This document shows, piece by piece, positions 522 through 32,683 of a DNA stretch of 32,792 nt. The stretch is from a bacterium (GTDB lineage Bacteria; JACRDZ01; JAQUKH01): NCBI GenBank assembly GCA_040754625.1, contig JBFMCF010000107.1:1-32792 (forward strand), read 5' to 3'. A model generated the notes under the pieces. The model searched no databases. It was not told where the DNA came from and saw only the letters and a program-made list of their open reading frames with translations. Both the position numbers and the translations under genes were made by a program. Position 1 is the first letter of the stretch; the number at the start of each line of letters is the position of its first letter.

Positions 522-1079
522 TTGAAAAAATATCTTCTATACCTGATTATCACACTGCTTACAGTAACTGATGGATGCAAATGCGGCAGCGGCGGCGACA
601 ACGGCGCCGTGACCCCGTCTGCCGCTATTCCCGAGGTGAAAATAGGGGTGACCAATCCGGTAAATATGGGTGATTTTTCCTTAACGGTTGATATCTCTGA
701 TGTTTTGAACGCAGCAGGGATTTATTTCAGGCTGTATTTTGACCCTAAAAATATCCAGGTTAAAGATAAAAATAAGCCGGTAAACAGTGTTGAAGAAGGT
801 TTGTTTTTTAACCAGGGTGGAATTACCACAAGTTTAATGGTCAATTTTCTTGATCAAAATCCCGACACGGGATGTTTGATAATAGGGCTTTCCCGTGCCG
901 GCGGGAAAACAGGAATAACCGGTTCAGGGAATATATTGAAATTCACATTTACTACTATAACTGCAGGCACAACTTCAGTTAAGTTTACTGAAACAGCCTC
1001 AGATAATTCATTGTTCACACCGGAATTGGAAAATATATCAAGTGTCAAGTGGACAAACGCGGAGGTAATAGTCAAATAA
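522..1079 (+). CDS. Cohesin-domain protein, probably surface-anchored
   Basis: A 185-residue protein from a TTG start, preceded by a GGGGA ribosome site. The N-terminal hydrophobic segment (5-15) ends in T-D-G-C19-K-C; a Gly/Ser/Asn linker after the cysteine looks like a lipoprotein, but Asp at -2 and Thr at -3 make a poor lipobox. Residues about 38-185 fit a cohesin fold: an opening strand VKIGV, the pattern 'AGIYFRLYFDPKNIQV' typical of the first cohesin sheet, and a closing 'ILKFTFTTITAG' with a final WTNAEVIVK strand. Cohesins bind dockerins; the preceding gene encodes one. Its stop codon overlaps the next start (TAATG), so the hydrolase is probably translationally coupled. The family assignment is by pattern recognition. 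Confidence 0.72.
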   Translation: MKKYLLYLIITLLTVTDGCKCGSGGDNGAVTPSAAIPEVKIGVTNPVNMGDFSLTVDISDVLNAAGIYFRLYFDPKNIQVKDKNKPVNSVEEGLFFNQGGITTSLMVNFLDQNPDTGCLIIGLSRAGGKTGITGSGNILKFTFTTITAGTTSVKFTETASDNSLFTPELENISSVKWTNAEVIVK

Positions 1080-4000
1080 TGTTTAAAAAAGTGGTATTTT
1101 TGTTTTTTACAATTTTTTTCTTGAATAATATAGGTATATTTGCGGCTCCTTCTATAAGCAACATTACCGACAACAGATCGAGCTATACTAACAGTGAAAT
1201 ACCGAGATATAAGAAGTTTGAAATAAGTTTCGATGTAGAAAATATGGATACATCTGTAACGAATCTTCAATTACCTTATGACTCAACCCCTCCGGCAGGT
1301 ATAACCGCTGGGGTAGGTATTACTGTTGATGGATTATTTTTGCCTCCAGGAGAAATAAATTGGGACAGTGCGAAGATACAGCCGGGATTCTGGTATGAGA
1401 ATTTTACAATGGATAAGAATGATACAGCGCACACTCCTGTTACCTCTTTCGGCAATTATCCTGATTGGATTTATGCTGAAGGCAAAGAACAATGGAAAAT
1501 CAGGTTCGCTCCAACCCAAATCGGCCAATGGAAATACAAAATCAGAGTAGTTGACGCTTCAGGCCAAACAGAGTCTTCAGAACAAACTTTTAATGTTGTT
1601 TCTTCTAATAGTAAAGGATTTATTAGGGTAAGCCAGGCTGACAAAAGATATTTTGAATTTGATAACGGGGAAGTTTTTATACCTGCGGGGTTAAGTTTGA
1701 TGACACAGGGAATAACACAGGGAATATCTCAGGGGATATTATCAAGATTGTGGAATAATACATGGCAGAATAAAGCAGTAGAAAACAAATTAAATTTATT
1801 CAGACCCTGGTTTACAGCATGGCAGGAACTGCCAATTTATGGAGGGTATGGGTCTACCAGGTCGTCATATTTTAGATTTTTAAAACTGGTTTTAAATTCG
1901 TCAGATACCTATGGGGAACCACAGGGTGTCCATTCCGGGAAATATGCCTATAAAAAATCCGTAGACGATGTAAAAGACTGTAATTATTGCTATGACTATG
2001 GTGCAAGGGCATTTTTAAATACCAGCTTCATATTAAAGCCATACGCGAAATATAAATATACCGGATGGATAAAAACAGTAAATCTGCAGGGAGATGGAGC
2101 AGGCGCGATGTTATATGCGACGCAGGGTGTTTTTGACTGGGTAACAGTAAATTCCATGATGGTTAAATATTTCAGTGATACTGCTTGGACAAACGTTGAC
2201 ACTAATTTTAAATTAACAGGTGATAATAACTGGACGCAGGTTGAAATGATTTTTACGAATAAAGAAAGACATTGGATATACCTGGGAGGAGAGGCCTGGA
2301 ACAGAGATTTAACCAGTTCCAATATCGGCACATTACAGGGTACAGCTTATTTTGATGACCTGTCTTTAAAAGAAGTTTTGGCTGACAGTACGTTGGGACC
2401 TGAACAGCTTGATAAAGGAGATATGGAATTTCATGAACATTTCGCACAAAGATATAGCTATCAGTTTGACAAGCTGCTGGAGTGGGCGGAGGCTAACAGC
2501 GTATATTTTAAAGTAAGTATTGAGGAAAAACAGGAAGAGACCTATACGAGAATAAAAGATAATGGCACTATTGATGCTGTCTGGCCTCAATGGGCTGGAG
2601 AAGAAAATTATGCTGGCCGTGCCGCTGGAAATACGCCCTTAAAATGGTATGAAAAAGCATATTGGCGTTATCTGATTGCCCGCTGGGGTTACAGTACTTC
2701 AATACATTCATGGGAGCAATTTAATGAACAAGACCCTAATTCCAGTTTTGTCTGGCAATTGACAAATGAATTTGGAGAATATGTCCGTCAAAATGACCCT
2801 AATAGGCACCTTGTTACCACTTCATTCTGGTCAGGTTTTCCGTCACAGCAATTCTGGTCAAATCCTGCTTATCCGAACGTGGATTATGCGGATGTGCACA
2901 AATATTTAAATCCTTACTCCAGCTATTCTTTTTGGGGTAATTATTTTAGTGAAAATAATATCAGCATTGAAACAAGGCCGGGATATATTTACGGTGGAAG
3001 CGGTTATTCAATAAAAATTCCGGTCAATCCGCCATCTTCATATGCCAAAAGTGCCGATGGTGTAATCATTCAGGGTAATGGAACCTGGACTATAAAATAT
3101 TTAATGAAGACAGAAAATTTACAAGGAACAGTTACCAGCAATGGCCTTTTGAGGGGCGGTTTGCTTTATAGAGTAGATACTTACGGCGATTCTACATACC
3201 AGTTTAGTAAAGTCCCAAGAATGGCTATGAGTAATTATTATTTAGACGGCAATATTCCCCCCGGAACTTACGACTGGACAGAATTCAATGGTACTTTTCA
3301 AATACAGGATAACGGCTTCCATTATCTATATATTTCCTTTAGTAACGAGGATTATAAAAGCGGAGATGCCTGGATAGATAATGTAGAAATAATCTCTCCT
3401 GTTGGAGAAAAAATATACGTCAACGGTGAATTTGATTTTTCGTCAAAACAGGGAGAAGATCTTGCTCTTTATGTTAAAAATTTTGCTAATTCGCTTAATG
3501 CCGGAAAGCCCGCAATCTGGGGAGAAATAGGGTTAATGGAAAGTACAAATACGGATATTGAATCAGAATTGTTAAAGCAGGACACTGTGGGTGTGGGTTT
3601 TCATAACATTATCTGGTCGCAAATCAGTCCTTCCGGAACAGGTGTATTATATTGGCATCATTTAAATGAAATTTACGGTGTAAAAAACTGGATTTACCAC
3701 TTCAGGCCGTATGTTGAGTTTATGCAGGGAATTCCTCTAAATAATGGAAAATACCAGGACGCCAATGCATCTTCCAATAATATAAATTTGAGAGTATGGG
3801 GGCAAAAAGATACTACCAATGCTAAGGCTCATCTCTGGATACAAAACAAAAAGCATACATGGAAGAATATAGTAGATAAAATAAACATCGATTCGGTTAT
3901 GGGGAATATTACAATCCCAAATATGAATGATACTACTTATTCAATTGATTGGTGGGATACATATTCCACTGCCGGGACGGAATTTAGAAAAACAAAGACA

Positions 4001-4924
4001 TCTGCTTCCGGGGGCAATTTAACTTTTTCCCTGCCAAATCCTTTATCTGCTGATGTAGCGGTAAAAATAAGTCCTGTGGCAGGTACAGCGACTGTTCCTG
4101 TTTTGGATTGGACGGGTGAGGTTGGATACACTAATGATGGGGTTGATCCTGAAAACGGTGATAACACTGCCAGTTTTAATTTCCGTGTCAAGTATACTGA
4201 AGCACAAAATACTTGCCCTTCTTTCGTCCGTTTGTTATTAAATAAAAATGGAGATAATGATTATACTGATACCGGAGAAATTATTGATATGGAAGAAGAC
4301 AATCCCGGGGATAATGATTTTACAGGCCCGGAGGGAAAAATTTATTCTAAAAAAATCACTGCCCCTTTCATTTCAAACACTGCTATTATCCCATATAAGT
4401 TTGAAGCGTCTAATGGCATCTTTCCTGCTTCCGGGGCACCTGTAACAGAAATTAACACCATAAATTTAAATTATAATTTATCGATAAATGTGGATACCGC
4501 TGGAGTTAATTTGAACCGGCTTAGCCTGTCTTCTTTTTCCCAGCCTGTCAGTATTAATGTTACAAACGCGACTATTTATGATTCTGCCTCGTTTACTCTC
4601 CAGATTACAGCATCAACATCAAGTAAAAATGACTGGAGCGCGGGTAATGCTTCGGGAAAAGAAGTCTATATGCTCAAGGCCCTTTTTACCGGGGTAACCG
4701 AAACACCTGTCGCAGGTGATTTTAATGATGATGATATAGTTACAACTACTGTGAAAACGTCTTCTCCGATAAGCTTTGGAAACTCTAAATTTCTGGCAAA
4801 TGGCTCAAATGTTCCTGCCGGCGGGTCGGTAAAGCTCTGGTTGTTATTTAAATCCCCGGAATCAAGCACTTCCCAATCGGAACAAAATATTTCACTTACA
4901 ATTGGCATTGTAAACACAAATTAA
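1079..4924 (+). CDS. Secreted multidomain glycoside hydrolase (DUF5060 plus clan GH-A-like barrel)
   Basis: 1281 residues from ATG 1079, chosen over an in-frame GTG at 1049 because the ATG sits just before a signal peptide (MFKKVVFLFF...IFAA), overlaps the previous stop and has GGAGG 13 bases upstream. Residues about 40-180 resemble DUF5060, the Ig-like N-terminal domain of several glycosidases, followed by 'YFEFDNGEVFIPAG', the usual entry into a TIM barrel. The barrel carries W545-E-Q-F-N-E550, a likely acid/base, and W814-G-E816, a likely nucleophile. Two jelly-roll carbohydrate-binding-like modules (about 275-435 and 630-780) interrupt the barrel. A beta domain and Ig-like, calcium-rich-looking C-terminal modules (about 1010-1281) follow. 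Substrate is unknown; by analogy with hydrolases in other exopolysaccharide loci it may trim the local polymer. It has no dockerin of its own. Confidence 0.75.
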   Translation: MFKKVVFLFFTIFFLNNIGIFAAPSISNITDNRSSYTNSEIPRYKKFEISFDVENMDTSVTNLQLPYDSTPPAGITAGVGITVDGLFLPPGEINWDSAKIQPGFWYENFTMDKNDTAHTPVTSFGNYPDWIYAEGKEQWKIRFAPTQIGQWKYKIRVVDASGQTESSEQTFNVVSSNSKGFIRVSQADKRYFEFDNGEVFIPAGLSLMTQGITQGISQGILSRLWNNTWQNKAVENKLNLFRPWFTAWQELPIYGGYGSTRSSYFRFLKLVLNSSDTYGEPQGVHSGKYAYKKSVDDVKDCNYCYDYGARAFLNTSFILKPYAKYKYTGWIKTVNLQGDGAGAMLYATQGVFDWVTVNSMMVKYFSDTAWTNVDTNFKLTGDNNWTQVEMIFTNKERHWIYLGGEAWNRDLTSSNIGTLQGTAYFDDLSLKEVLADSTLGPEQLDKGDMEFHEHFAQRYSYQFDKLLEWAEANSVYFKVSIEEKQEETYTRIKDNGTIDAVWPQWAGEENYAGRAAGNTPLKWYEKAYWRYLIARWGYSTSIHSWEQFNEQDPNSSFVWQLTNEFGEYVRQNDPNRHLVTTSFWSGFPSQQFWSNPAYPNVDYADVHKYLNPYSSYSFWGNYFSENNISIETRPGYIYGGSGYSIKIPVNPPSSYAKSADGVIIQGNGTWTIKYLMKTENLQGTVTSNGLLRGGLLYRVDTYGDSTYQFSKVPRMAMSNYYLDGNIPPGTYDWTEFNGTFQIQDNGFHYLYISFSNEDYKSGDAWIDNVEIISPVGEKIYVNGEFDFSSKQGEDLALYVKNFANSLNAGKPAIWGEIGLMESTNTDIESELLKQDTVGVGFHNIIWSQISPSGTGVLYWHHLNEIYGVKNWIYHFRPYVEFMQGIPLNNGKYQDANASSNNINLRVWGQKDTTNAKAHLWIQNKKHTWKNIVDKINIDSVMGNITIPNMNDTTYSIDWWDTYSTAGTEFRKTKTSASGGNLTFSLPNPLSADVAVKISPVAGTATVPVLDWTGEVGYTNDGVDPENGDNTASFNFRVKYTEAQNTCPSFVRLLLNKNGDNDYTDTGEIIDMEEDNPGDNDFTGPEGKIYSKKITAPFISNTAIIPYKFEASNGIFPASGAPVTEINTINLNYNLSINVDTAGVNLNRLSLSSFSQPVSINVTNATIYDSASFTLQITASTSSKNDWSAGNASGKEVYMLKALFTGVTETPVAGDFNDDDIVTTTVKTSSPISFGNSKFLANGSNVPAGGSVKLWLLFKSPESSTSQSEQNISLTIGIVNTN
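1703..1738 (+). repeat. 12-base tandem repeat, three units, in the hydrolase gene
   Basis: ACACAGGGAATA occurs twice in a row (1703-1714, 1715-1726), followed by TCTCAGGGGATA (1727-1738), which differs at three positions. It is in frame and encodes TQGI-TQGI-SQGI (residues 209-220), at the start of the catalytic barrel just after the predicted first strand. Confidence 0.85.
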
Positions 4925-5062: not shown

Positions 5063-6484
5063 ATGAATGGAAGTCAAGACAAGATAGCAACAGGAAATTA
5101 TTTAATTACAATCAGGCGTGTTTTTATTAAACGCTGGTGGCTGATTATTTTAATTACTTTTATTGTATCAATTTCCGCTTTTATTACAAGCAAAATCGTG
5201 GAACCGGTTTACGAGGCCAGTACAAGTATCCGTGTGCAGTCTCCACTCCAATTATCGGTCGGGAACAAGTCTATGTTCGGTAAAACTTCTTTAGAACCTG
5301 AAGCTATGTGGTTAAAAAGCCGTTATTTGCTGGAACTGGTCATGAAAAATCTGGGCATAGGAAATATGAATAACAAAAAAGAATATATTGAAATTATGGA
5401 AAAATTAGTAAACAACATAAAAGTGCAGACCTTTGAGGGCGCAAATACACTTGTTTTAACTGTGCGCTGGAACGAGCCTGAAATGGTGGCCAGAATTACC
5501 AATACACTGGCGGATACATTTATTGAAAAGTACCAGTTGTTTAACAGCGCCCTATCCAAAGACAAGAGGGTTTACATAGAAGAACAATTGAATTTAATCC
5601 GTATAAAGCTTGATGAGGCGCAAAAGAATTTAAGCGATTTTCAAAAAAAAGAGGGAGTGATATCTCTGGATGGAGAAATTAAAGGGATTACTGAGCGTAT
5701 TTTTTCATGGGAGGCAAAACGATACCAGGTAGAAATGGACATTAAAATCGCACAGGCTAAATTTAACCAGTTAAAAGAGCAGATATCTTTGGGCAGGGAA
5801 GATACCACCCTGAATTTTCAGGCCATGTTTTTCAGAGACAACCCTGTTCTTTTGTCACTGCAGGAAACGATTTCCAGGTTTGAATCAGAGGTAGCTTCAA
5901 TGAGTTATATGTATACGAATGAGTTTTCTCCTCTTTTGATAAAAAAGAAGCAGCTTGAAGAACTCAAAGATAAATTCCATGCTGAATTAACTAAATCTGC
6001 TTCTGAAAATAAATCATATAATAACCAGCGGCAGAAGGATTTTATATTAGACATGGTCCAGGCGGAAATGGAAATAGAGGCGAAGCAAAATGAACAAACT
6101 CTGTTAACCGATTTGATAGAAAAAGAACAGGAAAAACTAAAAAGTTTTCCGGAAAAACAGATTCATTATGTTGATATTTTAAGGGAAGAAAAAGTAAATG
6201 AAGAACATTATACTAATTTGTTAAAAAGACTGGCAGAGGCACGCATTGAAGAAAATGTTGATATGTGGGATGTGAGGGTTTTTGACCGCGCGTACCAGCC
6301 ATATCGTCCATTAAAGCCTAAACCCGTGCAGAATACCATTTTTGGTTTAGTAATAGGTTTAGTATTAGGGATAGGTGTGTCCATGGTTTTTGAATATTTT
6401 GATGATTCATTTCATTCAATAGATGAAGTAGAACAATTTTTGAACCTGCCTGTGCTCGCGGCAATTCCAAAGATGGAAGAATAA
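5063..6484 (+). CDS. Polysaccharide co-polymerase / chain-length determinant (Wzz-GNVR family)
   Basis: 473 residues with AGGAG six bases before the ATG. The layout is that of polysaccharide co-polymerases: a short cytoplasmic N-terminus, membrane segment 1 (about 26-44), a large periplasmic domain rich in charged, helix-forming sequence (about 175-400, probable coiled coil with an interrupted hydrophobic repeat), the 'PYRPLKPKP' motif (413-421) and membrane segment 2 (about 425-443). Such proteins set polymer length and activate a BY-kinase. It ends shortly after the second membrane segment with no Walker motifs, so the kinase is a separate polypeptide, encoded 25 bases downstream. This is the split layout of CpsC/CpsD-type systems rather than fused Wzc. 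First gene after the strong promoter at 4940-4968. Confidence 0.9.
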   Translation: MNGSQDKIATGNYLITIRRVFIKRWWLIILITFIVSISAFITSKIVEPVYEASTSIRVQSPLQLSVGNKSMFGKTSLEPEAMWLKSRYLLELVMKNLGIGNMNNKKEYIEIMEKLVNNIKVQTFEGANTLVLTVRWNEPEMVARITNTLADTFIEKYQLFNSALSKDKRVYIEEQLNLIRIKLDEAQKNLSDFQKKEGVISLDGEIKGITERIFSWEAKRYQVEMDIKIAQAKFNQLKEQISLGREDTTLNFQAMFFRDNPVLLSLQETISRFESEVASMSYMYTNEFSPLLIKKKQLEELKDKFHAELTKSASENKSYNNQRQKDFILDMVQAEMEIEAKQNEQTLLTDLIEKEQEKLKSFPEKQIHYVDILREEKVNEEHYTNLLKRLAEARIEENVDMWDVRVFDRAYQPYRPLKPKPVQNTIFGLVIGLVLGIGVSMVFEYFDDSFHSIDEVEQFLNLPVLAAIPKMEE

Positions 6485-6509
6485 AATAAGTTATTAATAT
6501 GAGGGGATA

Positions 6510-7364
6510 ATGAAAGATAATACAAATAAAAAAAATCTTCTTGGGGAAATATTAATTCATTCAGGTTTTATAACACAAGAACAACTGGAGTATGCTTTAA
6601 AAGAAAGACAAAAAAATGGCGGCAGGTTAGGCGAAGTGTTGGTCCGTTTAGGATATATATCATCCCAGACTATTTCCACAGTACTCAAAAAACAGCTGGC
6701 GTCTTCTCTCCTGGTTAACCATAAGATGCTGGAATCGCCTGAATTTAGTGAATTTTACCGTCTTCAAACAAGCATAAAAATGGCCCTTTTTTCCGACGAA
6801 CCGCTCAAATCTATAATGGTTACAAGCTCAATTCCTGAAGAAGGCAAGAGCTTTAGTGTAAGTTACCTGGCAATGATCATTACTTCATTAATGAATAAAC
6901 GGACGCTTCTTATTGATGCTGATTTGCGCCGCCCGTCTATCCATCTAAGATTTGGATTGTCATTGGTCTATGGGTTAACCGATGTATTAATTGAAAACAA
7001 AAAGATAGACGAATGTTTGCAGGATACCGAACTTGCCAATCTCAAGGTGTTGACTTCCGGGTCCCGCTGCCCGAATTCTTCATCTTTATTAGGTTCCCAG
7101 AAGATGAAAAATTTAATTAATGAGCTTAAGGAAAAATTTGATTTGCTGATTTTTGATTCATCCCCGCTTTATCCATTGGCTGACGCAATTATTTTAAGTT
7201 CTTATGTTGACGGGGCAATTTTAGTTATAAAGTCAGGTTCAACCAGAAGGGGAATAGTCCAGAGGGCTGTAAATACTTTAAAAGATACAAAAGTTAAAAT
7301 CCTGGGGACAATTTTAAACCAGGTAGAAGATGAAATTCCGAAATATTATTATCATAATCAATAG
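6510..7364 (+). CDS. BY-kinase with an N-terminal MshEN-type (c-di-GMP receptor-like) domain
   Basis: 284 residues; GAGGGG precedes the ATG. Residues about 79-284 are a CpsD/CapB-type tyrosine autokinase: Walker A P109-E-E-G-K113-S, Walker A' LLID136-A-D138-L-R-R-P, Walker B LLIFD216, and a short C-terminal tyrosine cluster Y279-Y280-Y281 as the likely phosphosite. The first 64 residues do not belong to that family. They hold two tandem 24-residue motifs (10-33 and 39-62) with a five-residue spacer, LLGEILIHSG... and RLGEVLVRLG..., which match the paired motifs of MshEN, the c-di-GMP-binding N-domain of GspE/MshE ATPases. Motif II is complete, ending in Gln62; motif I has Leu for the first Arg and Arg33 at the Gln position. 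It likely phosphorylates itself and partners with the preceding co-polymerase; c-di-GMP control is inference. Confidence 0.88.
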   Translation: MKDNTNKKNLLGEILIHSGFITQEQLEYALKERQKNGGRLGEVLVRLGYISSQTISTVLKKQLASSLLVNHKMLESPEFSEFYRLQTSIKMALFSDEPLKSIMVTSSIPEEGKSFSVSYLAMIITSLMNKRTLLIDADLRRPSIHLRFGLSLVYGLTDVLIENKKIDECLQDTELANLKVLTSGSRCPNSSSLLGSQKMKNLINELKEKFDLLIFDSSPLYPLADAIILSSYVDGAILVIKSGSTRRGIVQRAVNTLKDTKVKILGTILNQVEDEIPKYYYHNQ

Positions 7365-7393: not shown

Positions 7394-8833
7394 ATGTTGA
7401 ATACTTTTAAAATAGAAACAATACCGGATAGTAAAAATATATTATTACGGGCAACCTTTTTTTCACTTATTCTGGCACTAATAATAGGTTTTGTTATTGG
7501 AATATTGTCTCCTTTGTATGCAATAGGTTTTATAGTTTTCCTGTTTTTCATCATTTTAACTATTTCGAATATCCGGCATGGAATACTTTTTTGGCTGTCA
7601 ACCGGAGGGCTATTTGCTGTTCCGCTTTACACAATCAGAAATACAAGTATATATCCAAGTATGCTTATGTTATCCGTGGTTTTTATTTTCTGGATTTTTA
7701 TAGCATTAGAAACTAAAAAATTTTTAATTACTCAGACAAAATTATTCTGGCCCCTGATTTTGCTTGTTATTATAACTATTCTTTCCAGTTTCAAAGGCGT
7801 TATTCTCTATGACCCTGAAGTCAGGGGAGAACACCGTTTTGCTTTAGTTCAGATTTTCGCGTCTTTTTTAATAATTTTTTCTGTGTTTACTGCTTTTTTA
7901 ATACCAAGATTTTTTCAGACAACTAAAGAAATCCGGCAGATATATTCTGCTTTGATATATTTAGGTATAGGGATATTTATTTTTGAACTTTCAGGATTAG
8001 GCAGGTTTGGGTTCTCGCCAATCTGGGCGCCTTTAATGCAAGCGAATGCGGTTTCACTATCTTATACCAGTTTGTTATTTATGCCTGAATTATCACTTTG
8101 GAGAAAGATTCTATTTTCTCTTTTGATTATTTTTTCCCTCCAATATATTCTGGCGCAGTTTTTTTCTGGAGGGGAGCAATGGATTACAGGATGGGTTGTT
8201 TTTGTTATACCTTTGATTTTTATAACTTTTTGCAGGTCAAAAAAATGGGGTATTTTTCTTGTAATTTTGTTTTCCGTTTTGATATTCACCATGGCCGGTT
8301 CGCAGGTAAAAAATATGTTTGACATGGCGGAGAAAGAAAGAGATTATGACCGTTTAATAATGTGGATGTTTGCTTTTAAAATATGGATTAAAAATCCATT
8401 TTTTGGTGTTGGCCCTGGTAATTATATGGATTATATTTTAACCTATGCACATAAAGAGTTTGCCTATACATCTGCCCACAACCAGTATTTTCAGATACTT
8501 ACTGAACTGGGAGGCATTGCGTTTGTTTGTTTTTCCGGATTAATAATAAAAATTTCCTTTCTGGCAAAGTATCTTTTCAATAAAATAACAGATAATTTTT
8601 TGAAAGTATTTATAATTGCTATCATAGGAAGTATATATGGGCAGTTATGTGCCAGCTTTATGGGAGATTATATACTGCCTGCTTATCATAATGGCGGCTC
8701 CAGGAATATCTCAACAACAATTTATTTTTGGGTTTTAGTAGGGACTTTAATAGCTATAGAACAAATTGTTAAGGATGTTGAAGGCTCCACGGGAAGAACG
8801 TCCCTCGAATTTAAAACACGGGAATTTTTATAA
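7394..8833 (+). CDS. Wzy/WaaL-type membrane protein (O-antigen polymerase or ligase)
   Basis: 479 residues with about eleven or twelve hydrophobic segments spread along the chain. Near the C-terminal third it carries 'NPFFGVGPGNY' and then 'SAHNQYFQILTELGG', the His-Asn pattern of the Wzy_C/O-antigen ligase superfamily, on a large periplasmic loop. Members either polymerise lipid-linked repeat units or ligate finished polymer to an acceptor, and sequence alone does not separate the two. With a chain-length protein next door polymerase is plausible; with the Wzm/Wzt exporter further on, ligase is equally plausible. The final twenty residues are hydrophilic and without obvious motif. No good Shine-Dalgarno is seen before ATG 7394. 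Confidence 0.85.
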   Translation: MLNTFKIETIPDSKNILLRATFFSLILALIIGFVIGILSPLYAIGFIVFLFFIILTISNIRHGILFWLSTGGLFAVPLYTIRNTSIYPSMLMLSVVFIFWIFIALETKKFLITQTKLFWPLILLVIITILSSFKGVILYDPEVRGEHRFALVQIFASFLIIFSVFTAFLIPRFFQTTKEIRQIYSALIYLGIGIFIFELSGLGRFGFSPIWAPLMQANAVSLSYTSLLFMPELSLWRKILFSLLIIFSLQYILAQFFSGGEQWITGWVVFVIPLIFITFCRSKKWGIFLVILFSVLIFTMAGSQVKNMFDMAEKERDYDRLIMWMFAFKIWIKNPFFGVGPGNYMDYILTYAHKEFAYTSAHNQYFQILTELGGIAFVCFSGLIIKISFLAKYLFNKITDNFLKVFIIAIIGSIYGQLCASFMGDYILPAYHNGGSRNISTTIYFWVLVGTLIAIEQIVKDVEGSTGRTSLEFKTREFL

Positions 8834-11060: not shown

Positions 11061-11091
11061 TAAAATAATGTCAGAATTTAAAAGGAAAAAT

Positions 11092-12084
11092 ATGAGAAAA
11101 ACCACATTTTTTGTATTTAAAAGGCATGCGGTTTCAATATTAAAAAGATTAAATTTTACAAGGATTTTAAATATTTTTGTATTAATTATTGAAACAAAAT
11201 TAAGAAAAGTAAAAGTAAAGCATTATCCTATTGTCGCAAGGATAAACACAATTCCCTATTGTAATCTTTTATGCCCTGGCTGTAAGGGGGAAAAGTATAA
11301 AGATGTAAAAGAGTCCACGCATATAATAAAGTTTGAGGAATACAAAAAGATAATCGACAAGATTTCAAAACATTTAATGCTTGCGATTTTATACGATGAA
11401 GGTGAGCCATTATTAAATAATGATATTTACAAGATAATAAGCTATACAAACAGCTTGAATATTTCCACAACAATAAGCACCAACCTGTCTTTTAAAATGA
11501 CAGAGAAGAATATTGATAACCTGATATTGTCGGGATTGGACCGTTTAATTGTTTCGCTTGACGGAATGACTCAGGAGATATATGCGCGTTACAGGGTTAA
11601 TGGAGATGTTGAGTTGGTAAAAGACAACTTGAAGAAAATAATAGAGGCTAAAAAGAAGCATAATAAAAAATACCCGGTTATTGATGTCCAATTTTTGAAT
11701 TTTGGTTACAATGAACATGAGATGCACGATGCGGAGAAATTTTCCTATTCTGTTGGTGCGGACACATTTAGTTCTTATGACGCGAATTTTCACGGATGTT
11801 ATCCATTTGATGGTTCTGAATCTGAACGTGTCAAATTAGGATGTTCATGTATATGGACCGCATTACATATAAATAACGATTGTATGGTCTATCCCTGTAA
11901 TTATGGAGAAGATAACGGGTTTGAACCTATTGCGTCAATATATGAAAATGATTTTAATGCATTTTGGAATGGAGAATTTATCCAAAAACTAAGAAAAGGC
12001 TTTAATAAAAAGAATAAAAAATTAGAATATTGGCAGTGTAAACAATGTCCTAATTCAGAGGCATTGCCGCGTATTTTGCAATAA
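11092..12084 (+). CDS. Radical SAM protein with a SPASM-type C-terminus
   Basis: 330 residues from ATG 11092, preferred over in-frame ATG 11068 because AAGGA (11082-11086) is five bases upstream of it. The radical SAM signature C-N-L-L-C-P-G-C (CxxxCxxC, binding the 4Fe-4S cluster that cleaves S-adenosylmethionine) is near residue 60, followed by 'LYDEGEPLLN' (the GGEP-like motif) and 'LIVSLDG'. The C-terminal part has further cysteines: LGCSC-IW, DCMVYPC and YWQCKQC, as expected of SPASM extra cluster ligands. Substrate is unknown. Relatives act in peptide or cofactor maturation, but similar genes also appear inside polysaccharide clusters, where a role in sugar or lipid-carrier modification is possible. 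It sits between a GT4 gene and the exporter. Confidence 0.85.
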   Translation: MRKTTFFVFKRHAVSILKRLNFTRILNIFVLIIETKLRKVKVKHYPIVARINTIPYCNLLCPGCKGEKYKDVKESTHIIKFEEYKKIIDKISKHLMLAILYDEGEPLLNNDIYKIISYTNSLNISTTISTNLSFKMTEKNIDNLILSGLDRLIVSLDGMTQEIYARYRVNGDVELVKDNLKKIIEAKKKHNKKYPVIDVQFLNFGYNEHEMHDAEKFSYSVGADTFSSYDANFHGCYPFDGSESERVKLGCSCIWTALHINNDCMVYPCNYGEDNGFEPIASIYENDFNAFWNGEFIQKLRKGFNKKNKKLEYWQCKQCPNSEALPRILQ

Positions 12085-31477: not shown

Positions 31478-32683
31478 GTGAGAATTTTATTTATTACCCC
31501 ATACTTACCATCTTTAATCAGGGTCCGTTCATTTAACTTTATTAAATCCCTGAAAAAACAAGGGCACTCTATATATTTGGTTTCTCTTGTCCCTGATAAA
31601 AAGGAATTTGACAATTTGGAGGAAGTAGAAAAATATTGTGAAAAAGTTGAAACATTTTTTTTGCCGAAATATAAATCTATCTGGAATTGTGTTAAATATT
31701 TAATATCTTGTGTGTCGCTGCAGTCTGCGTATTGTTTTTCCGGAAAAATGAAGAAAAGAGTAAAGGAGTTGCTCGAAAAAGAAAAGTTTGATTTGATCCA
31801 TGTTGAATTTATAAGAGCGGCATATTATTTACCCAAAGAAAATACGCTGCCGTCGGTTTTTGATTCTGTAGACTGTGTTACTAATTTATATAAGCAATTT
31901 TCAGATGCAAAATATTCTTTTTTTATGAGGTTTATAAGGTATATAGAATGGTTTAAACTAAGCCGTTATGAACCAAGGGAAGCAGGAAGGTTTGATAAGG
32001 TTTTGATAACGACTGAAAATGAAAAAAAAGGACTTTTGGAATTAGATAAAAACCTGCCGGTTGAAGTTATTGCCAATGGAGTCGATTTTGAATATTTTAA
32101 ACCTCAAAACGCAGAGATTGAACCGTTTTCAATAGTTATGACCGGCAAGATGAGTTATATAGCGAATGAATTAGCGTTTATTTTTTTTGCAGAAAAAATC
32201 TGGCCTAAAATCAGGATGGAAATACCCCAGGCCATATTGTATGTTGTGGGAAATTGCCCGGGGCCCAAAGTAAAAAAATTTAAATCCTCGGATATTATTA
32301 TTACAGGATATGTCCCCGACCTTCGTTTATATTTGTCCAAAGCAAGTGTGGTTGTTGCACCAATTGTGGCAGGCGGGGGCATACAAAATAAGATACTGGA
32401 AGCTATGAGTATGGCAAAACCGGTTGTTACGACAAGCAAGGCATGTGAGGCTTTTCCCATGGATGTGAGTAATTGTCTGCTTGCTGGAGATACCCCTGAT
32501 GAATTTGCCAGGGCAGTAATAAATATTTTGAACGATGCAAACTTTGCAGAAAGTTTAGGAGCAAAAGCGCGGCAGTTTGTAGAAAAATATTATAATTGGG
32601 ATGAAAAAACTACAACACTGCTTCAAATATATAAAGGATTGCAAATTGAGGTAACCGGTCAGTTCCCGGTGGAAATCAGGTAG
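31478..32683 (+). CDS. GT4 glycosyltransferase, PEP-CTERM/EpsH-associated sugar-transferase-like
   Basis: 401 residues from GTG 31478; MRILFITPYLPSLIRVRS aligns with the starts of the paralogues at 9777 and 29428, which supports the GTG. Later motifs: 'FDSVDCVTNLYKQF', 'VIANGVDFEYFKP', 'IVMTGKMSYIANELA' and 'VVAPIVAGGGIQNKILEAMSMAKPVVTT'. This resembles the group of sugar transferases described beside PEP-CTERM/EpsH systems, although no exosortase gene is visible here. Unlike the other two paralogues it has no insertion after the 'KACEAF' segment. Its last ten residues (VTGQFPVEIR) are coded by a GC-richer stretch containing a small inverted repeat, next to the palindrome at 32685, so the true C-terminus may have been altered by a repeat element. 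Confidence 0.88.
   Translation: MRILFITPYLPSLIRVRSFNFIKSLKKQGHSIYLVSLVPDKKEFDNLEEVEKYCEKVETFFLPKYKSIWNCVKYLISCVSLQSAYCFSGKMKKRVKELLEKEKFDLIHVEFIRAAYYLPKENTLPSVFDSVDCVTNLYKQFSDAKYSFFMRFIRYIEWFKLSRYEPREAGRFDKVLITTENEKKGLLELDKNLPVEVIANGVDFEYFKPQNAEIEPFSIVMTGKMSYIANELAFIFFAEKIWPKIRMEIPQAILYVVGNCPGPKVKKFKSSDIIITGYVPDLRLYLSKASVVVAPIVAGGGIQNKILEAMSMAKPVVTTSKACEAFPMDVSNCLLAGDTPDEFARAVINILNDANFAESLGAKARQFVEKYYNWDEKTTTLLQIYKGLQIEVTGQFPVEIR

Follow-up and report, generated by a model that had tools for sequence, protein, structure and literature searches.

The stretch of DNA analysed here (the window, 32,792 nucleotides) carries a gene on its forward strand (6510..7364 +) for a 284-aa protein, the fusion protein, in which an MshEN_N-type domain precedes a BY-kinase. 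Its ATG start codon is at 6510 (+), 3 bases beyond a likely ribosome-binding site recognized from the sequence, AGGGG (6502..6506 +). The preceding gene (5063..6484 +) encodes a 473-aa PCP (Wzz/GNVR) chain-length determinant, with matches to Pfam Wzz (1.8e-11) and GNVR (9.9e-12), and to TIGR03007 (XrtA chain length, 6.4e-51) and TIGR03017 (EpsF, 6.6e-29). It ends 25 bases upstream of the fusion gene, in agreement with the sequence-only reading, which had tied the fusion to the control of polysaccharide length. The same PCP-to-fusion order occurs in a same-genus relative (L007), and the PCP protein is presumed to be the membrane activator partner of the kinase. Downstream, an O-antigen ligase/polymerase (Wzy_C) family protein (7394..8833 +; Pfam Wzy_C, 2.2e-15) starts a glycosyltransferase/ABC-export cluster.

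Several neighbours complete the picture of the locus. A 1291-aa protein with a DUF5060 match (1049-4924) lies directly ahead of the PCP gene, as does its 1071-aa counterpart in L007 (5159-8374); in both genomes this large protein may serve the locus as an enzyme that processes the polysaccharide. Within the polysaccharide cluster, between glycosyltransferase and ABC export genes, is a radical SAM/SPASM protein (11068-12084). The segment 15271-18005 encodes a two-part protein, an oxidoreductase (GFO_IDH_MocA) joined to a hexapeptide acyltransferase, with a DegT aminotransferase behind it; together they resemble a WbpB-WbpD fusion plus WbpE, as would serve to make a diacetamido sugar acid.

Residues 10-33 (LLGEILIHSGFITQEQLEYALKER; 6537..6608 +) and 39-62 (RLGEVLVRLGYISSQTISTVLKKQ; 6624..6695 +) of the fusion protein form MshEN motifs I and II, separated by the five-residue spacer QKNGG. 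The 24-5-24 layout described in the sequence-only reading, whose span 6510-6701 corresponds to residues 1-64 of the 284-aa ORF, is therefore exact. A profile search bears out the assignment to MshEN: NF053729 (MshE-related cyclic di-GMP-binding domain, 53 positions) matched residues 11-62 with 70.9 bits (E 5.5e-20) against a curated NCBIfam cut-off of 38 bits. With the N-terminal 69 residues as query, phmmer retrieved MshE (5htl) at 4.3e-8 and the PilF GSPII-B domain at 3.3e-7.

The Pfam model PF05157 (MshEN) had no match in the fusion protein. In the source genome PF05157 covers solely the C-terminal subdomain, which follows the 53-residue domain, as illustrated by the ATPase on contig C54, where PF05157 matched 31754-32014 (minus) and NF053729 matched 32015-32173 (minus). 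Since PF05157 models this alpha/beta subdomain of full MshEN, which was not found in the fusion protein, Pfam is blind to the domain studied here, and we dropped the model as a test for MshEN. Any protein with the N-terminal part alone (compare G000:C54:31754-32173) would likewise escape PF05157.

To evaluate the motifs, we scored the extended MshEN consensus (PMC11731258) as (R/K/L)LGxx[LVI][LVI]xxG[LVIF][LVI]xxxxLxxxLxxQ, adding Phe at position 11, the residue found in MshE (PMC5013675). Of the 22 positions, 19 agree in the domain (10/11 in motif I and 9/11 in motif II); the highest score among 200,000 shufflings of its 53 residues was 13, so that a chance origin of the fit was rejected. MshEN domains of ATPases from other genomes scored 15-21. 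Both motif glycines (G12, G41) and five of the six stacking leucines (L11, L26, L30, L40, L59) are retained; the deviations are Arg33 in place of Gln in motif I, and in motif II Tyr49 and Ile55, the latter replacing one guanine-stacking Leu. The domain of L007 (18/22) shares the Arg33 and Ile55 deviations and additionally has Ile at motif I position 2.

The AlphaFold2 model of the full protein, built from a 40-sequence alignment (mean pLDDT 87.3; bundle core 86-96), displays a four-helix bundle (residues 5-17, 23-36, 40-47, and 52-69) followed by the BY-kinase. The best PDB match of the N-domain model was MshE with c-di-GMP (5htl), at 0.7 A over 54 columns and a Foldseek probability of 1.00; the E of only 0.034 reflects the small size of the domain. 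The first 13 PDB matches were all MshE or PilF GSPII domains. The N-domain is thus predicted to form a four-helix bundle like that of MshE 1-64. The 24-5-24 layout, the glycines, the stacking leucines, and the bundle are common to the MshEN_N receptors of MshE, PilB, and PilF; the fusion protein differs from these in lacking the C-terminal subdomain, in carrying Arg33 for Gln, and in having a tyrosine kinase in place of a secretion ATPase.

The kinase domain comprises residues 86-278 (6765..7343 +). TIGR01007 (polysaccharide biosynthesis tyrosine autokinase) matched residues 86-283 with 160.5 bits (3.6e-47; curated cut-off 108), supporting the earlier description of a CpsD-like tyrosine kinase behind the MshEN-type domain. 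Searches with the kinase found VpsO, CapA/B, BceF, Etk, and Wzc, and the closest structure to the full model was CapA2B2 (4jmp, E 2.1e-19), with VpsO, Wzc, and Etk also matched. Walker A (SSIPEEGKS, residues 106-114; 6825..6851 +), Walker A' (IDADLR, 135-140; 6912..6929 +), Walker B (LLIFD, 212-216; 7143..7157 +), and the C-terminal tyrosine cluster YYY (279-281; 7344..7352 +), which is YDYY in L007, are all intact. Judged by these motifs, the BY-kinase is intact and is predicted to autophosphorylate on tyrosine.

EX2RX2R is the oligomerisation motif of BY-kinases, as in CapB. It was not found in the kinase of the fusion protein, where the site is degenerate (S80..Y83..Q86) and is overlapped by the linker helix region (residues 63-85; 6696..6764 +); the nearest kinases (L108, L124, L011, and L017) are degenerate here as well. 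With the canonical motif absent, one cannot take the standard octamer cycle for granted. In this the protein departs from CapA/CapB and Wzc, with which it shares the kinase fold, Walker motifs, Tyr tail, and a PCP partner. PCP and kinase are two separate proteins, as in CapA/CapB; neither CapA/CapB nor Wzc has a sensor domain.

The protein is 82% identical to its L007 counterpart, and all 23 linker residues are identical between the two. Estimates of dN/dS for the pair, rough since dS is saturated, were ~0.11 for the MshEN part, 0 for the linker, and 0.04 for the kinase; to this approximation, the MshEN part evolves under purifying selection. Both halves belong to known families, and the protein is a real fusion of an MshEN_N-type domain to an intact BY-kinase. 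We consider it reasonably probable that it is a stand-alone (CpsD/CapB-type) BY-kinase with a compact 53-residue MshEN_N receptor-type domain at its front, an assessment that covers the whole explanation: fusion, c-di-GMP sensing, relay through the linker, and polysaccharide output.

A comparison with the EpsG family was needed, as the EpsG profile TIGR03029 aligns to residues 11-271. Our EpsG sample consisted of 321 genomes from the class of G148, selected on account of its RpoB, which is 79% identical to that of E. coli; 16 matches began at profile position 1-4. Among 17 aligned proteins, NF053729 matched 16, namely the fusion protein, its relative, and 14 of 15 EpsG-like proteins. EpsG is therefore already a fusion of the MshEN layout to a BY-kinase, and by sequence this type of fusion has a precedent in the EpsG family of Proteobacteria, apparently unremarked in the literature. 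An EpsF-type PCP gene lay upstream of EpsG in all 10 loci tested. The shared domain order, BY-kinase fold, and PCP-gene neighbour, together with the TIGR03029 alignment, would fit an ordinary EpsG family member from an EpsF/EpsG pair, but the score of 119.4 bits is far under the equivalog cut-off of 313.8, and in the tree the kinase groups with CpsD-like kinases (93/87) and apart from the EpsG clade. An AU test rejected a clade of EpsG plus the fusion protein (p = 0.0008). In addition, the MshEN part is nearer to the ATPase domains (27-39% identity) than to the EpsG domains (14-25%). Membership in the EpsG family is, on these grounds, very unlikely.

The two fusions also differ in their state of preservation. 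EpsG domains fit 9-17 of the 22 consensus positions, with eroded motifs that show FG and AA at key positions, whereas those of the fusion protein are near-canonical. In EpsG (L071-L086) the Walker A Lys is mostly replaced (GRS, GCS, GAS), with GKS kept in a few, and all aligned EpsG proteins stop short of any Tyr tail; the fusion protein has both. By sequence, most EpsG proteins resemble pseudokinases whose c-di-GMP domain has eroded. When the domain-less EpsG relatives L091 and L099 were added to the clade of EpsG and the fusion protein, the AU test gave p 0.139 and no rejection, which leaves room for a single origin with later losses. Independent origins are the better reading.

Among 386 diverse genomes, the intact fusion was found only in its own genome and in the same-genus genome. 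The search profile was built from two sequences and used with score thresholds that weak cases might not reach; with it, the intact fusion was absent from 195 genomes belonging to the phylum of G031, a genome with many MshEN genes that may be Myxococcota-like, and from 19 in the phylum to which the nearest stand-alone kinases belong. A tblastn search of plasmids with the domain alone gave no match. Other candidates were rejected: a Sinorhizobium plasmid match (H15/L068), fusion-like by coverage, was actually a plain Wzz-Wzc kinase lacking the domain; G489, whose match starts at profile position 23, also lacks it; and L125, L142, L143, and further kinases of 240-310 aa have different N-termini.

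The sequence-only reading knew of no characterised case of this fusion. In the openly searchable full-text literature we found neither a paper on an MshEN-BY-kinase nor one on c-di-GMP binding by EpsG, but the fusion type itself exists in the EpsG family. The main text of Wang 2016 names CheA, CheX, Ser/Thr kinase, REC, HD-GYP, cyclase, and glycosyltransferase as fusion partners; in that main text a tyrosine kinase is not named.

Does the domain bind c-di-GMP? The absence of the first Arg (Leu10) and of the last Gln (Arg33) from motif I, from which altered binding had been suggested, is seen in the sequence. The suggestion does not hold for the first residue: the published extended consensus allows Leu, so the loss of Arg is not damaging, and a hydrophobic residue at position 1 predicts tighter binding, Leu at this position belonging to a published high-affinity variant class (PMC11731258). 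It stands for the last residue, with Arg33 as the principal doubtful contact and main possible weakness. Changes of the equivalent MshE Q32 cost up to 5-fold in binding (<=5-fold; PMC5013675), and PilF Q190E still bound c-di-GMP at 950 nM (PMC11731258). The C-terminal subdomain is dispensable in MshE, whose isolated MshEN_N (residues 1-62) bound c-di-GMP at 0.35 uM, slightly better than the whole domain at 0.5 uM (PMC5013675). The source genome encodes 16 GGDEF domains, which are c-di-GMP synthase domains. We infer that the domain quite probably binds c-di-GMP.

Alternatively, the MshEN_N fold may have been kept while sensing was lost, leaving a docking or oligomerisation module that replaces the lost EX2RX2R contact. 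The degenerate EX2RX2R and the Arg33 and Ile55 deviations shared with the same-genus relative would suit such a role; EpsG keeps its fusion despite eroded motifs, and the XpsE N-domains have lost c-di-GMP binding (PMC5013675). Against this, both glycines and five of six stacking leucines remain, the consensus fit is as good as in MshEN ATPase domains and better than in any EpsG, the domain is under purifying selection, and changes of the Gln and of position 1 are tolerated (PMC5013675, PMC11731258). We therefore regard loss of sensing as unlikely.

The kinase would work with the membrane PCP protein encoded directly upstream. If the domain is a receptor, c-di-GMP would bridge motifs I and II of the bundle, and the resulting change could be relayed to the kinase via the invariant linker helix (residues 63-85), altering kinase-subunit assembly under the PCP and hence how far the Tyr tail autophosphorylates. 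More of the locus's polysaccharide would then be made or exported when c-di-GMP is high. The computed basis of this scheme is domain identity, predicted fold, consensus fit, kinase motifs, gene pairing, selection, and GGDEF presence. Regulation of the kinase by c-di-GMP has, in our estimate, a little better than an even chance, with activation slightly more likely than inhibition. A parallel would be E. coli NfrB, whose MshEN domain links c-di-GMP, at the level of the protein, to the making of polysaccharide; NfrB is itself a glycosyltransferase, whereas the present domain sits on the BY-kinase of a PCP pair.

Binding need not alter catalysis, since MshE ATPase activity changed by <10% on c-di-GMP although binding matters in vivo (PMC5013675). 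An effect on assembly is for the same reason a real alternative to a catalytic one: c-di-GMP could act on a scaffold, tuning how many kinase subunits sit on the PCP or how they assemble there, with phosphorylation secondary. EpsG, which retains the domain and loses catalytic residues, would be consistent with this. The catalytic motifs and Tyr tail of the fusion protein are all intact, which argues the other way, and we hold a primarily scaffolding role to be distinctly improbable. The fuller proposal, that a c-di-GMP-gated tyrosine kinase controls the PCP/BY-kinase phosphorylation cycle and that such fusions arose at least twice independently, intact here and degenerate in EpsG, is a tentative one that falls somewhat short of an even chance.

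The literature portrays the activating signals of BY-kinases as little explored (PMC5035731). With a c-di-GMP receptor built in, the kinase of a PCP pair would have such a signal ready for testing, and the signal would be the chief second messenger of biofilms. If so, BY-kinases would gain a direct small-molecule input, c-di-GMP control of chain-length-type polysaccharide systems would be placed at the protein level, and the fusion could couple a biofilm signal directly to sugar-coat production. An eroded version of this domain is present in nearly all sampled EpsG proteins, and the question thus reaches far beyond the source genus.

The source genome also encodes two MshEN ATPases and one exosortase. 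Its second BY-kinase (L131 604-2493, G000:C122) is of the joint Wzc type (629 aa); its Walker A' is altered (VSTDLRRP), and it lacks the MshEN domain. On contig C33, two ORFs of 535 and 655 aa each match the two-motif c-di-GMP domain below the cut-off and in its first half only (G000:C33:66916-66996 and 69515-69592).
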